Source of the DNA: an uncultured Glaciecola sp. | GTDB taxonomy: Bacteria > Pseudomonadota > Gammaproteobacteria > Enterobacterales > Alteromonadaceae | Direction of reading: 5' to 3' | Assembly (NCBI GenBank): GCA_905479945.1 | Contig: CAJQOP010000080.1 | Coordinates: forward strand, 1-53,223 | Length of the DNA stretch: 53,223 bases | Shown: piece by piece, positions 27,969-34,565 of the stretch | Layout: each line of letters starts with the position of its first letter | Position numbering within the stretch: position 1 is the first letter of the stretch | The notes under the pieces: generated by a model | Seen by the model: only the letters and a program-made list of their open reading frames with translations | Told to the model about the DNA's origin: nothing | Databases searched by the model: none | Position numbers and translations under genes: made by a program

Positions 27969-28225
27969 CCATCAACATTTGGCTGGTAAATAATTCACGC
28001 AATTAGTAATCGGATGAACCTTGTTATTAATACCTTAATTTCTCTCTTCATGAACCTCTTTATGCTCTTCTGAAGTTCTATTGGCATGCTCTTTGTATAC
28101 TCATACTGAGTTTTGATTGATTTACTACTTTTTCATCGCCGGACACACAGTTTATCTGTCAACTGGTGAAAGAATAGTTTCAATTAGCAAGCACAGTAAT
28201 TTATGTTTGATTGTCGGACCAAGCA

Positions 28226-29131
28226 ATGTATAAGGCCAAAATGCAAGAAATAAAGTCATTGATAGCACAATATGTCAATAAAGAAGCACTTCCTGCTGCT
28301 TATAATGACCTTGCACTAAAATGGTACACACCTCTTTGTAAATCGCTTTCACTGCACCATGATAAAGCAAAGCACAAAACTATGTTTATCGGTATCAATG
28401 GATGCCAAGGTTCAGGGAAATCTACGTTAAGCGGCTTATTGAGCTACCTTTTAACGACATATTTCAAAAAATCGTCAATTGTAATCTCACTCGATGATTT
28501 CTATTTAACTAGGGCCCAACGACTCAATTTAGCAAGTAAGGTCCATTCCCTGCTTGAAACCAGAGGTGTTCCAGGTACTCACGATACTGAGCTTATGCAA
28601 GAGGTACTTGAAGCCTTAAGCTTGGGACAAAGCATACAGATTCCAACATTTAATAAAGCAATTGACGACCGTAATAAAATAGATGATTGGCAGGTTGTAA
28701 ATGGGCTTATTGATATAGTTATTGTAGAAGGTTGGTGCTGGGGAACAATGCCGCAAAATGATGATGACTTAGCGCACGATGTTAATGATCTAGAAAAAGA
28801 CCAGGATACCAACAGAGCTTGGCGTAACTATGTTAATCAACAGCTAGCGATTAACTATGTTCCCTTGTATTCGTTTATACATAAATGGGTGTTTTTGCGC
28901 GCTCCTAGCTTTGAACACGTTTATAAATGGCGGTGCGAACAAGAACACAAGCTTAAGTCCACCGCTAAAGATACAAGCAATGTAATGAGCGATGAAGAAG
29001 TGCTCAGCTTCATACAATATTATCAGAGGTTAACAATGCACACATTATGTACACTCGATGCACGTTCAGACTGGGTATTTGAATTAGATAATGATAGAGA
29101 TATCATCACAAGCAGTCAAAATGAACAATGA
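28226..29131 (+). CDS. Glycerate kinase-like P-loop kinase (GLYK/COG4240 type)
   Basis: P-loop kinase related to plant-type D-glycerate 3-kinase and bacterial COG4240 proteins. About 300 residues, with Walker A GINGCQGSGKST at about residues 56-67, an acidic segment ISLDDFYLT, the ETRGVPGTHD loop, and IVEGWCWG. The start is uncertain: TTG 28211, ATG 28226 and ATG 28241 are all in frame and none has a good ribosome site. The gene overlaps the next one by 11 bases and heads a four-gene glucosylglycerate operon, so phosphorylation of D-glycerate to 3-phosphoglycerate is a sound inference. The 242 bases between cmoB and this gene probably hold the operon promoter. Confidence 0.82.
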   Translation: MYKAKMQEIKSLIAQYVNKEALPAAYNDLALKWYTPLCKSLSLHHDKAKHKTMFIGINGCQGSGKSTLSGLLSYLLTTYFKKSSIVISLDDFYLTRAQRLNLASKVHSLLETRGVPGTHDTELMQEVLEALSLGQSIQIPTFNKAIDDRNKIDDWQVVNGLIDIVIVEGWCWGTMPQNDDDLAHDVNDLEKDQDTNRAWRNYVNQQLAINYVPLYSFIHKWVFLRAPSFEHVYKWRCEQEHKLKSTAKDTSNVMSDEEVLSFIQYYQRLTMHTLCTLDARSDWVFELDNDRDIITSSQNEQ

Positions 29132-29987
29132 ATTAATGAGGATTTACAACCGACAAGTTCTTATTTTTACTGACCTAGACGGCACCTTAATGGATCACTA
29201 CAGTTATGAGCATAAGGATGCGAAACACTGTATGAACAGGCTGCTAGGTCATAGCATTCCGATTATCCCAAATACTAGTAAAACCTTCTCAGAACTTTTA
29301 GTGCTGCGTAAACGCTTGAAGTTAAATGGTCCATTTATTATAGAAAATGGGGCTGCTATTTATATCAATAAAAACTTTTTGCCTGAGAAACCCAAAGGAG
29401 CGCTTTGGCAAGAAGGTTTTTGGGTCAAGTCGTTTAGTTCAAAACGCAATTATTGGTTAGGTTTAATAAAAAAGGTAACACCGGAGTACGGTCACTTGTT
29501 TGAATCTTTCTCAAAAATGTCGCAAGAGAGAATTATTGAACTCACAGGCTTATCAGTAGAGGACGCGCTTCTTTCATCTCAAAGACAATTCGGCGAACCC
29601 TTATTTTGGAAAGGCACAGACGAAGAGTTAGAAGGCTTTATTGCCGTACTAAGACGAATGGGCTCTCATCCTGTTAAAGGCGGCCGGTTTTTGCATGTAG
29701 GTGGAGACTGCAACAAAGGTAAGGCCTTAACTTGGCTTTTAAAAGAATATCAGCGACAGCATAAAAATATAACCGTGAGCACTATAGCTTTAGGTGATGG
29801 TAAAAACGATATTGCGATGCTTGAGGTTGCAGATACGGCCGTTCGTATAGCATCTCCAGTAAATGAGCCACCAGAATTACAACGAACAACTAAAATACAC
29901 ACAAGCAGCTTACACGGTCCTAAAGGCTGGGCCGAAGTGTTGGAGCAGTTAATTCCTGAATCGACATTCTTTGCTCAAAGCAAATAG
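29121..29987 (+). CDS. gpgP: Glucosyl/mannosyl-3-phosphoglycerate phosphatase (HAD family)
   Basis: HAD-type phosphatase of the mannosyl-3-phosphoglycerate phosphatase (YedP-like) family, 288 residues. Motif I is FTDLDGTLMD, motif II the threonine in PNTSKTFSEL, and motif IV the acidic pair in ALGDGKNDIAML. Other ATG starts lie ten codons upstream and five codons downstream. Neighbouring GpgS indicates that the substrate is glucosyl-3-phosphoglycerate, giving glucosylglycerate. The gene overlaps the kinase and lies 26 bases before gpgS. Confidence 0.87.
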   Translation: MNNELMRIYNRQVLIFTDLDGTLMDHYSYEHKDAKHCMNRLLGHSIPIIPNTSKTFSELLVLRKRLKLNGPFIIENGAAIYINKNFLPEKPKGALWQEGFWVKSFSSKRNYWLGLIKKVTPEYGHLFESFSKMSQERIIELTGLSVEDALLSSQRQFGEPLFWKGTDEELEGFIAVLRRMGSHPVKGGRFLHVGGDCNKGKALTWLLKEYQRQHKNITVSTIALGDGKNDIAMLEVADTAVRIASPVNEPPELQRTTKIHTSSLHGPKGWAEVLEQLIPESTFFAQSK

Positions 29988-30013
29988 ACATACAAGACAA
30001 CTTAAGGAATAAC

Positions 30014-31243
30014 ATGGCTGATTTTCATCAAAATGGCATTGTAACAACTCTACATAACTTGGAAGACAGATCGATTGAGGATTTGGAGACTGAACTATGC
30101 GAATTTTCTAAAAAGCGGCCACTAGGGCTTATTCTACCGTCTTTATTTTCAGAGCTAGAAGGTAAAGCCCTACCCGCAACTATTGAACATATCAAACAGG
30201 TTCCGTATTTATCAGAAATTGTAATAGGTTTAGATAGAGCTAATTTAGAACAGTATAGACATGCCTTAGGTTTTTTCTCTGCGCTCCCTCAACACCATAG
30301 AGTGTTGTGGAATGACGGGCCTAGATTAAAAGCACTCGATGCCGAATTAAAAGAGCTTGGGCTCGCTCCTAAAGAGTTAGGTAAAGGTCGAAACGTTTGG
30401 TATTGCATGGGTTATATACTCGCATCCGGAAAGGTAGAAAGCGTAGCGCTGCACGACTGTGACATTCTCACCTATGAGCGTTCATTACTTGCTAGATTAA
30501 TTTATCCAGTTGCTAACCCACAGTTCAATTATGAATTTTGTAAGGGATATTATGCGCGTGTGGCAAATGGCAAAATCAACGGTCGAGTATCACGTCTGCT
30601 AGTAACCCCTTTGTTACGTGCGTTAAAAACCACGCTAGGTACTAACGAATACCTCGACTTTATGGACAGTTTCCGCTATCCACTGGCGGGGGAATTTTCA
30701 TTCAGGCGTGATGTTCTTAATGATATAAGGATCCCCAGCGATTGGGGTTTAGAAATCGGCGTTCTTTCCGAGATGCACAGAAATTACTCACCAAATAGAT
30801 TATGTCAAGCTGATATCGCGAAAACGTATGATCATAAACATCAAGACCTCTCCCTGAATAATGAACAGGGCGGCCTATCTAAGATGTCAATAGACATCAC
30901 AAAAGCGCTATTTAGGAAACTTGCAACTCAAGGAACAACATTCAACACAGAAACGTTTAGAACAATAAAAGCGACCTATTTTAGGATAGCATTGGATTTT
31001 GTTGAAACGTACCATAACGATGCTGTCATGAATGGTTTGAAACTAGACATACATAATGAAGAGAAAGCAGTTGAAATGTTTGCTCATAATATTATGAAGG
31101 CTGGTCAGAGCTTTTTAGATAACCCTATGGAAACTCCTTTCATCCCAAGTTGGAATAGAGTAGTTAGTGCGAAACCAGATGTTCTAGAATGTCTTAAAAA
31201 AGCAGTTGAAGATGACTATAAAGAATTTAGTCAAGGGATCTAA
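30014..31243 (+). CDS. gpgS: Glucosyl-3-phosphoglycerate synthase GpgS (GT81)
   Basis: Retaining glycosyltransferase joining glucose from an NDP-glucose donor to 3-phosphoglycerate. The 409 residues include the donor-site region PSLFSELEG (about 42-50), a metal-binding D-C-D in [10 protein letters not shown] (148-150), the phosphoglycerate-site segment [17 protein letters not shown], and [11 protein letters not shown]. Ribosome site AAGGAA. It stands between its phosphatase and the phosphorylase, the core of a compatible-solute pathway. Confidence 0.9.
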
Positions 31244-31244
31244 A

Positions 31245-33029
31245 ATGATTGAGCACTTTCCAAATTTTACGGCTAAAATAAGACACCATCTTGAAGTTAT
31301 TTATCAAGATATTTTGACTTCTGAAGAAATAAAAAACTTAATACCTCAGTTGCAAGCAAGCATTGGGGTGATAGATGAAACTAACTGTCATTATCCTACT
31401 CCGCATAAAAACAGATGGGATGAGTCAGACATTGTCATGATCACATACGGTGACAGCATTATAGAGAACGCTGATGATGTAGAGTTTGGTCTTGGTCAAA
31501 AACCATTAAAAACCTTGTTGCGCTTTGTTAATGAATATTGCGATTCAATTGTTAGTCACATACATATCTTACCCTACTTCCCTTACAGTTCTGATGATGG
31601 ATTTTCTATAATAGATTATTCAGTAGTGAACCAGAGCTTGGGCGATTGGAGCGATATTCGTGATATTTCAAATCAGTATAGTCTTATGACTGACCTGGTT
31701 ATTAATCATTGCTCTGCTCGCAGTCAGTGGTTTGAAAATTTTTTGAAACAAGATGGTATCGGTCACGATTATTTTTTTACTGCTTCTAATACTGATGACC
31801 TCAGCATGGTTGTTAGACCAAGAACATCAGACTTACTTAAGAATGTTGAAACACCTAAGGGTACTCAACATGTATGGTCGACGTTCAGTCACGATCAAGT
31901 AGATTTTGATTTCAGAAATCCAAACGTTTTAATCACATTTGTAGATATTATTAGGCTTTATTTAGATCAAGGAACCAAAATATTTAGACTTGATGCTATC
32001 GCGTTTCTTTGGAAAGTAGTTGGTAATGAAAGTATAAATTTACCTCAAACACATGAAGTTGTCCGTTTATTAAGAACTTTAATTGAACATGCATCACCAG
32101 AAGTATTGATCATTACAGAAACCAACATACCAAATAGAGAGAATTTAACTTACTTTGGAAATGCGAACGAAGCGCATGCTATTTATAATTTCTCATTACC
32201 CCCCTTACTCATAAACACTCTTGTAACTGGCAATTGTAGCTATTTAAAAAATTGGATGATGAGTATGCCGCCAGCCCAGAACGGCACAACATATTTTAAT
32301 TTTATCGCGTCACATGATGGAGTTGGCTTAAGACCTGCTGAAGGTTTACTTTCTGATGAAGAAATCACTGATTTAGCTCATTGTATGCAGAATTTCGGCG
32401 GCAAGGTGTCATGGCGAATGACAGAGAGTGAGATACAAAAACCTTACGAAATGAACATTGCTTTAATCGATGCGATGAAGGGTACTATCGAAGGCCCTGA
32501 CCAATTTCAATTAGAGCGATTTGTTTGCGCTCATGCAATAATGCTTGGCTTAGAGGGTATTCCAGGGATTTATATACATTCTCTACTGGGAACGCCAAAC
32601 GACGAAGAGAAAGTAATTAATACCGGCCAGAATCGAGGAATAAATCGTCATCGATGGGACTTTAAAAGTCTGATTGCACACTTACAAGACGCTGACAGCA
32701 TGCATGCTAAAGTGCTAAGTAAACTTTCCATGCTAATTAGAATAAGAAAAGCACAACGTGCATTTCACCCAAATGCAACACAGTTTACTTTGCAACTCGG
32801 TGAGCATGTTTTTGGATACTGGCGCCAAAGCATCGACCGACAACAAAGCATATTTTGCTTATCGAACATAACAAATGAAATGCAATATGTAAGGCTGTCA
32901 GATATCAACTTAATTGATAACAGCCTTTGGTATGAGCTTATTCACGAGAAGGCAGTGGATGTTAAAACTGAATATTTAAATGTCGCACCTTACCAAACAA
33001 TGTGGATATCTAATAAGGCAACAGGCTAG
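31245..33029 (+). CDS. GH13_18 sucrose phosphorylase-family enzyme, probable glucosylglycerate phosphorylase
   Basis: Alpha-glucosyl phosphorylase of the sucrose phosphorylase family, 594 residues. The TIM barrel has [20 protein letters not shown], nucleophile D250 in [11 protein letters not shown], acid/base E292 in LIITETNIP, and the stabilising D358 in IASHDGVG. Ribosome site AGGG sits just before the ATG, two bases after gpgS. Family members act on sucrose, glucosylglycerate or related glucosides. Location after gpgP-gpgS favours glucosylglycerate, releasing glucose 1-phosphate and D-glycerate. Sequence alone does not settle the substrate. Confidence 0.85.
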
Positions 33030-33066
33030 TATCTTTGACGCTGTTATAGCATTAGTAAAATCAAGA

Positions 33067-33094
33067 GCTAGGGCAAAACTCACCTTGCCCTAGC
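33067..33094. terminator. Terminator between the glucosylglycerate operon and the DUF2189 gene
   Basis: Perfect ten-base stem GCTAGGGCAA / TTGCCCTAGC with an eight-base loop between two convergent genes. There is no clear T tract on either side. Confidence 0.6.
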
Positions 33095-33103
33095 CTTAAG
33101 GCT

Positions 33104-34022: not shown

Positions 34023-34565
34023 TCAAGGAAAATCCACATTAGCTTCGTGCCAATTGATGCTAGTCAAAAACAATGTAGATAATGCATCATTTAATTGACT
34101 AAAACTGGTAATTTCTGTTTTCTTTCCTGTGAGCATTTCGAGCACGAATTGGTGGCAATTGTTGTCAAGAATATGATAATCCCGCAATTGAAACAGGTTT
34201 TCTTTGCAACGTTCGGCTACTTCTTGCACTGCTAACGGTAAATAATCATCATTGCATGCCAAGTAAATGCTATCACCACTCCTGTTTTCTAAAAATCGTT
34301 CCGGAGAGACGGTCCTGATTAAACCACTGCCACTTAATTCATATATGCCGTCATCAACCCATATGCCAGTATGATCTAGCACGCCATATATACCACAAGT
34401 GACAATTGAACCATTTCTTGGCAAAACGCGCTTTGATGACTCGCCTGGTAAGTATCGAACCGTATTTGTACTTTTCATATATGAATTATTTGCTTTATTT
34501 GTTGCATACAATCCCAAACATGCAGCACCTAACCATAACAACGGAGCAGGCATAAAATTCTCCAA
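34023..34565 (-). CDS. LRAT-like (NlpC/P60 superfamily) membrane-anchored protein
   Basis: 180-residue protein with a short hydrophobic N-terminus (about 7-22) and a domain resembling the lecithin:retinol acyltransferase group of papain-like folds. The core is YGVLDHTGIWVDDGIYEL, with a candidate catalytic histidine at residue 65, followed by LDNNCHQFVLEML with a candidate nucleophile at C137. The permuted order, His before Cys, is that of the LRAT group. Bacterial members have no settled substrate; acyl transfer or hydrolysis on lipids is a guess. A second ATG at codon 5 is possible. Confidence 0.7.
   Translation of the reverse strand: MENFMPAPLLWLGAACLGLYATNKANNSYMKSTNTVRYLPGESSKRVLPRNGSIVTCGIYGVLDHTGIWVDDGIYELSGSGLIRTVSPERFLENRSGDSIYLACNDDYLPLAVQEVAERCKENLFQLRDYHILDNNCHQFVLEMLTGKKTEITSFSQLNDALSTLFLTSINWHEANVDFP

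Follow-up and report, generated by a model that had tools for sequence, protein, structure and literature searches.

Gene clusters for the turnover of the protective sugar acid glucosylglycerate (GGa) belong to an already recognised and conserved kind, and their gene linkage has been published. Franceus et al. 2017 reportedly described clusters in which the gene for GGa phosphorylase (GGaP) stands with those for glucosyl-3-phosphoglycerate synthase (GpgS), the phosphatase GpgP and a glycerate kinase. The accessible part of PMC7178133 states that GGaP genes are often accompanied by genes for glycerate kinase, GpgS or GpgP, and calls the exact function of GGaP unconfirmed. Here, we analysed 53,223 nucleotides of an uncultured marine Glaciecola sp. 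(contig CAJQOP010000080.1 of GCA_905479945.1, a 4.03 Mb assembly of 132 contigs that is 90.5% complete); this whole stretch is called the window. At 28226–33029 on the + strand, the window holds four consecutive open reading frames for a putative GLYK-type kinase, GpgP, GpgS and GGaP, the same four functions as in the clusters reviewed in PMC7178133, and the run is very probably a GGa turnover operon. Kinase family, gene fusions, kinase exchange and an upstream element, all treated below, are not mentioned in the accessible part of that review.

Two further systems allow a comparison. For a GGa operon of Prochlorococcus, recycling of GGa to glucose 1-phosphate and 3-phosphoglycerate has been proposed (accessible part of PMC11631117). 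It resembles the window operon in combining GGa synthesis genes with GGa recycling, and glycerate appears among the abbreviations of its scheme. It includes a putative transporter gene, whereas Pfam and NCBIfam recognised no transporter among the annotated flanking genes of the window (cmoA, cmoB, DUF2189 and LRAT-like); opposite transcript changes of synthesis and recycling are described for it, whereas the window operon is known from sequence alone. Escherichia coli YcjM has the same signature residues as the window GGaP (38% identity over the aligned part), but its gene adjoins an ABC transporter and sugar dehydrogenases, and no GpgS, GpgP or glycerate kinase is annotated in 1368500–1388000.

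Predicted enzymes of the four-gene run

The genes of the run are as follows:

28226..29131, + strand: predicted GLYK-type D-glycerate 3-kinase, from ATG 28226 (alternative TTG 28211), with the motifs GCQGSGKS (P-loop) and RGVPGTHD
29121..29987, + strand: predicted GpgP/MpgP-type HAD phosphatase, from ATG 29121 (longest open reading frame from 29091)
30014..31243, + strand: predicted GpgS, glucosyl-3-phosphoglycerate synthase, by homology to NF040724
31245..33029, + strand: predicted GGaP, a GH13_18-type glucosylglycerate phosphorylase, from ATG 31245 (longest open reading frame from TTG 31206)

The kinase and GpgP genes overlap by 11 bases (in-frame ATG 29136 as the start would give a 4-base gap), and gaps of 26 bases and 1 base follow between GpgP and GpgS and between GpgS and GGaP. 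A preliminary description of this DNA had spoken of overlaps or gaps up to 26 bases, which is correct, and the spacings of −11, +26 and +1 appear consistent with a single operon over the four genes. Its four enzyme assignments were likewise supported by profile matches, solved-structure matches and signature residues when the families were assessed with Pfam, NCBIfam and PDB sequences.

The phosphorylase gave the most specific evidence. GGaP enzymology is covered in the accessible parts of PMC11009771 and PMC8950772, and the determinants of GGaP are a (T/S)ETN motif at strand beta-5 and Glu instead of Gln in loop A (accessible part of PMC7178133). The window protein has both, namely TETN (N307) and the PYE of KPYEMN (E415; numbering from TTG 31206), and the 108 residues between N307 and E415 equal the spacing of N275 and E383 in M. 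silvanus tabulated in the same source. All 39 proteins of the alignment, E. coli YcjM among them, had equivalents of N307 and E415, and in the PDB alignment E415 fell on the Gln of the YQ motif of the best-ranking sucrose phosphorylase chain. These residues support the prediction of a glucosylglycerate phosphorylase rather than a sucrose or glucosylglycerol enzyme. Another candidate for the loop-A residue, the Glu of GLRPAEG, proved wrong and is missing in E. coli YcjM, L055 and L059; the correct column is PYE.

The window kinase matched the solved D-glycerate 3-kinases 6ckg (3e-22) and 7xpc (2.3e-21; phmmer, PDB sequences), the latter of which we take to be GLYK from Arabidopsis. Its homology to the solved GLYK enzymes and its P-loop place it in this plant-type family, and an RG-x-x-G-[TS]-HD region is also common to all three. 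Unlike these two proteins, the window kinase is bacterial and operon-encoded, and some relatives have the kinase in one frame with GpgP. Its matches in Pfam and NCBIfam were generic kinase matches only, all under the cut-offs, and Pfam gave no PF02595 (GK-I) match either for this protein or anywhere in the 90.5% complete assembly (G000). The nearest proteins in a tree of 99 GLYK sequences came from G090 (same genus) and Glaciecola species. According to the accessible part of PMC4378991, Arabidopsis GLYK forms 3-phosphoglycerate and both E. coli glycerate kinases (GK-I) form 2-phosphoglycerate; by family precedent only, the product of the window kinase would be 3-phosphoglycerate.

GpgP passed the curated cut-offs of NF001218 (365.3 bits; cut-off 362) and TIGR01486 (220 bits; cut-off 164.75) and kept the HAD motifs IFTDLDGT, NTSKT and GDGKND. 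It is predicted to be a GpgP/MpgP-type phosphatase, glucosyl and mannosyl specificity not being distinguished by these models. The synthase showed full-length homology to NF040724 (E=2e-106; model positions 2–402 of 402) but resembled solved GpgS chains only weakly (E=0.00016 at best, PDB sequences), and the putative name GpgS was given from homology and context only. Its gene was one continuous match in the window and in the Glaciecola loci L060 and L061, unlike in L023 (G090, − strand), where GpgS extends over two frames near codon 60 through a frame change or a sequencing error.

Glycerate kinases, gene order and fusions in relatives

A survey of gene co-occurrence, for which the preliminary description had called, revealed a known type of glycerate kinase in 75 of 76 GGaP genomes, and the four-gene order recurred in relatives. 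Three unrelated glycerate kinase families were scored: GLYK, GK-I (PF02595) and MOFRL (PF05161). Among 119 genomes at the order level, 40 matched GGaP at E<=1e-30; G005 and G052, with weak matches (122 and 110 bits), were classed as GGaP-negative, leaving 38 strong GGaP genomes. All 38 had a kinase of one of the three families, versus 45 of the 81 genomes without GGaP. GLYK was present in 21 of them and GK-I in 17, with both or neither in none; MOFRL was found in addition in three (G103, G112 and G114), and GpgS in 34. GLYK occurred in only 5 of the 81 genomes without GGaP, and GLYK (26 genomes) and GK-I (49 genomes) shared none of the 119 genomes, with 10.7 expected. At the class level, 272 of 274 genomes were counted (G000 and G006 set aside), which gave 38 further GGaP genomes and 234 GGaP-negative ones; a kinase was found in 37 of the 38 versus 130 of the 234. 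These 38 held GLYK (10), GK-I (10) or MOFRL (17), never two kinases, and one had none (G126, 75% complete); at most eight GLYK candidates per genome were scored here, and GLYK absences are softer. A glycerate kinase is an almost fixed but exchangeable partner of GGaP, and any of three unrelated enzymes can take this place.

The window shared the order GLYK-GpgP-GpgS-GGaP on one strand with 17 of the 37 order loci that were fetched, six of the 17 having GLYK and GpgP in one frame. Seven of the ten class genomes with both GGaP and GLYK had it too, as did 41 of 80 named GLYK loci; these 80 were the best among 526 confirmed loci and lean towards relatives of the window. Because the same order and strand recurs in this way, the gene run of the window is not a product of chance. 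Among the 41 loci, L113 (GpgP) and L127 (GGaP) each had one gene in two pieces; among the other named loci, two hit a contig end after three genes, five lay at contig edges and two had GGaP nearby on the opposite strand. GK-I adjoined GGa genes in L140, L143, L144 and L145 and adjoined GGaP in L057. Five genomes labelled f2 g6 (G001, G027, G049, G069 and G103) had two GLYK copies each: a cluster copy sharing a frame with GpgP, and a second copy at another place.

Relatives also encode predicted fusions (GLYK-GpgP, GK-I-GalU and GpgS-GGaP), and in every pair the two partners are steps of one loop. GLYK and GpgP lay in one open frame in 11 fetched loci (L034, L038–L042, L079, L085, L105, L117 and L148). 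In three of these frames scanned with NCBIfam, the phosphatase part was clear and the kinase part gave generic kinase matches; in eight frames searched for motifs, the P-loop and GD..ND were found in all eight, and other patterns failed in some. The linkers of three Methylophaga loci had no in-frame ATG, with GTG and TTG codons in two, and that of L117 had an in-frame ATG; because of such in-frame start codons, separate translation of GLYK and GpgP is possible in some loci. A GLYK tree with ten fused rows (L148 omitted) required at least four changes between fused and other proteins, and well-supported branches force three of these, a pattern suggestive of repeated fusion or fission. In L140:4033–6090 (+), an in-frame fusion of GK-I and GalU, which passes both curated cut-offs, precedes GpgP-GpgS, and in L129:9577–12684 (+), from a Luteolibacter metagenome-assembled genome, GpgS and GGaP shared one open frame; each of these two was seen in one sequence only, out of a draft or metagenome assembly, and could be an error. 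A GK-I fusion suspected in G313 from the length of the open frame was rejected, the GK-I frame ending at a stop.

Proposed closed loop and possible upstream control

We propose that GpgS would join glucose from nucleoside diphosphate (NDP)-glucose to 3-phosphoglycerate, and that GpgP would then remove the phosphate to give GGa. Once the solute is no longer needed, GGaP would convert GGa and phosphate to glucose 1-phosphate and D-glycerate, and GLYK would phosphorylate the glycerate to 3-phosphoglycerate, which could go back to GpgS or into glycolysis. The kinase may serve to keep the glycerate set free by GGaP from being stranded, and one promoter ahead of its gene probably reads the whole operon. 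Enzyme activities, co-transcription, flux direction and control by RpoN are inferences on our part. As gene content, the closed loop is well supported: the gene logic set out in the preliminary description stands, strengthened by the GGaP determinants, the D-glycerate 3-kinase family, the near-constant kinase and the loop-step fusions, and the enzymes may run as a cycle or as synthesis and salvage at different times. The accompanying claim of little carbon loss is right on paper, but energy is spent. One turn consumes one nucleoside triphosphate (to NDP-glucose, with release of pyrophosphate) and one ATP, without loss of carbon. Because of this expense, all steps running together would form a futile cycle unless regulated, and control therefore matters.

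Several observations weigh against the closed loop. The genomes are related, so that Fisher and hypergeometric values overstate independence; each of the ten order families holding GGaP has one kinase type, and the survey p-values are therefore only indicative. GK-I, the kinase in 17 of the 38 order GGaP genomes, was near GGaP by coordinates only in G114, and physical linkage of kinase and GGaP is therefore not needed. The GLYK matches include 1odf, labelled hypothetical, so that belonging to this family is not in itself proof of glycerate as the substrate, and GpgS, at 356 bits, missed the curated NF040724 cut-off of 700. In addition, 30 of the best 80 of 526 GLYK loci had no GGa gene within reach, and GLYK therefore also works outside the GGa pathway; no widely shared neighbour emerged for GLYK genes outside clusters, the commonest neighbour family occurring in 5 of 32 loci.

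The strongest alternative is catabolic salvage, in which GGaP and GLYK do no more than channel GGa to glycolysis, the 3-phosphoglycerate that the kinase forms seldom returns to GpgS, and the two halves of the pathway are not active together. The energy cost of a full turn speaks for it, as does the replacement of the kinase by GK-I or MOFRL in relatives, E. coli GK-I enzymes making 2-phosphoglycerate that enters lower glycolysis (accessible part of PMC4378991). Because many relatives use these kinases, direct return to the GpgS acceptor is no general requirement. Against salvage, however, the compact gene run mixes genes for making GGa with genes for breaking it down. In several lineages, GLYK and the biosynthetic GpgP occupy a common frame, and one relative has a fusion of GK-I with GalU, the enzyme that forms UDP-glucose, a likely GpgS donor. 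We regard salvage as a serious possibility, although we lean slightly away from it.

The timing of the proposed loop may be set from a site upstream of the kinase gene:

28081..28097, + strand: putative sigma54-like −24/−12 element TTGGCATGCTCTTTGTA (GG-N10-GT), from a scan with a sigma54 consensus

This site had p=0.005 in the window against simple shuffles. Canonical sigma54 sites have GC at −12. The window element has GG at −24 and the right spacing to −12, but GT at −12, and is therefore called sigma54-like only. Among relatives, we searched 350 bp upstream of GLYK with the strict pattern TGGCAYN5YTG, which was drawn up after a first scan of many of the same loci and is not a blind test. 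A cluster was defined here as GLYK with downstream same-strand GpgP and GpgS, or GpgS and GGaP. The element preceded 47 of 71 GLYK-led clusters, versus none of 71 on the reverse strand (the 71 include two identical-GLYK pairs, L036/L084 and L033/L086, probably the same genomes; L154, with a short upstream region, was set aside). It preceded only 2 of 36 GLYK genes outside clusters, both in Moritella (L126 and L128), some of the 36 lying near contig ends where a cluster was perhaps cut off and two with short upstream regions being set aside. Per strand, the background came to 0.0099 per 350 bp; as controls we took shuffles, the opposite strand and the remainder of each locus, rather than known sigma54 promoters of these species. 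Of 19 named Alteromonadaceae, 18 carried the element; it was also present in Colwelliaceae, Echinimonadaceae, two of three Halieaceae, one Pseudoalteromonadaceae and two Verrucomicrobiota, and in one of the ten class loci L148–L157 (L153; L154 short upstream), whereas the strict pattern was found in none of four Piscirickettsiaceae or three f15 loci. A looser scan (p<=0.05, first-order shuffles) picked up two of six clusters that lack GLYK, two of four with GK-I, two of the ten GLYK loci from the class survey, and five of 30 GLYK genes that stand outside clusters. An alignment of the upstream regions of five Glaciecola-type loci misplaced the window element and showed little shared sequence beyond the end of cmoB.

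The conserved sigma54-like element suggests possible control by RpoN and an enhancer-binding protein, perhaps tied to nitrogen status. GGa is said to be a nitrogen-stress marker, going by the titles of Behrends 2012, Alarico 2014 and Klahn 2010. Alternatively, the element might be the site of another regulator rather than a sigma54 promoter. That reading would fit the GT at −12 in the window, the C at this place in only 9 of 47 copies, and the lack of the element in 24 of the 71 clusters, which also counts against the proposed RpoN control. Accessory sites point the same way, no IHF-like enrichment being seen (2 observed, 2 in shuffles). NtrC-type sites upstream in the 47 loci reached at least 9/12 matches in 11 loci (2.68 in shuffles) and at least 10/12 in three (0.28 in shuffles); the one convincing case was L077 (Thalassotalea), with a perfect 12/12 palindrome TGCACCTTCATGGTGCA some 130 bases upstream of the sigma54-like element, and we make no general claim for NtrC. 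A candidate in L034 was discarded, as by eye it lay within a terminator-like hairpin. Against another regulator stand the strand bias of 47 to 0 over the low background, the GC form at −12, unrequired by the pattern, in two Halieaceae, two Verrucomicrobiota, L153 and a few others, and the distinctness of the element from diverged intergenic DNA in six Alteromonas-type loci. The constancy of TGGCA and of its spacing to YTG is no evidence, because the search required both. Overall, another regulator seems a possible but rather doubtful explanation, and the putative sigma54-like element is the most useful new lead from this locus. A full-text literature search (titles and abstract openings, mostly without subscription papers) found neither loop-enzyme fusions nor a sigma54-type promoter for GGa genes; the novelty of either is not established.

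Phosphorylase direction, flanking region and implications

GGaP is reversible and has been used for in vitro synthesis (accessible part of PMC11009771), so that it might instead make GGa from glucose 1-phosphate and glycerate, with GLYK clearing excess glycerate. This is improbable, given a dedicated GpgS and GpgP pair within the same gene run and the abundant cellular phosphate that would favour breakdown. Still less probable is a sucrose or glucosylglycerol phosphorylase with an accidental link to GGa: the best NCBIfam match is sucrose_gtfA (185 bits, missing the cut-off of 334) and the closest PDB relatives are sucrose and glucosylglycerol phosphorylases, but this identity was rejected on the signature residues, with both GGaP determinants at identical spacing and a Glu at the position held mostly by Gln in the aligned enzymes for sucrose and glucosylglycerol, and the cluster with GpgS and GpgP is conserved in relatives.

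Upstream of the operon lie cmoA and cmoB. Downstream of it comes a DUF2189 gene in convergent orientation, with one further feature in between:

33066..33095, no strand assigned: 13-pair hairpin in the interval from the GGaP gene to the convergent DUF2189 gene, resembling a terminator when read on the − strand

Terminator-like sites in the region numbered 4 versus 3.7 expected, weak by count, this hairpin having the longest stem of the four; sigma70-type sites numbered 11 versus 16.7 expected. A small LRAT-like protein is encoded next to the operon (34023–34565, − strand) and also beside the cluster in G090.

More broadly, it is conceivable, and we put it forward tentatively, that GGa in marine gammaproteobacteria and some Verrucomicrobiota runs in a dedicated closed cycle under RpoN as a nitrogen-free carbon and energy buffer, with an obligatory but exchangeable kinase, and that selection for channelling repeatedly made bifunctional enzymes of the three kinds seen here. 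The near-universal exchangeable kinase and the loop-step fusions are good genomic evidence for phosphorolysis plus re-phosphorylation as the physiological route. The sigma54-like element makes the timing of the loop testable in culturable Alteromonas or Glaciecola, and the operon may bear on carbon exchange between Alteromonas and Prochlorococcus.

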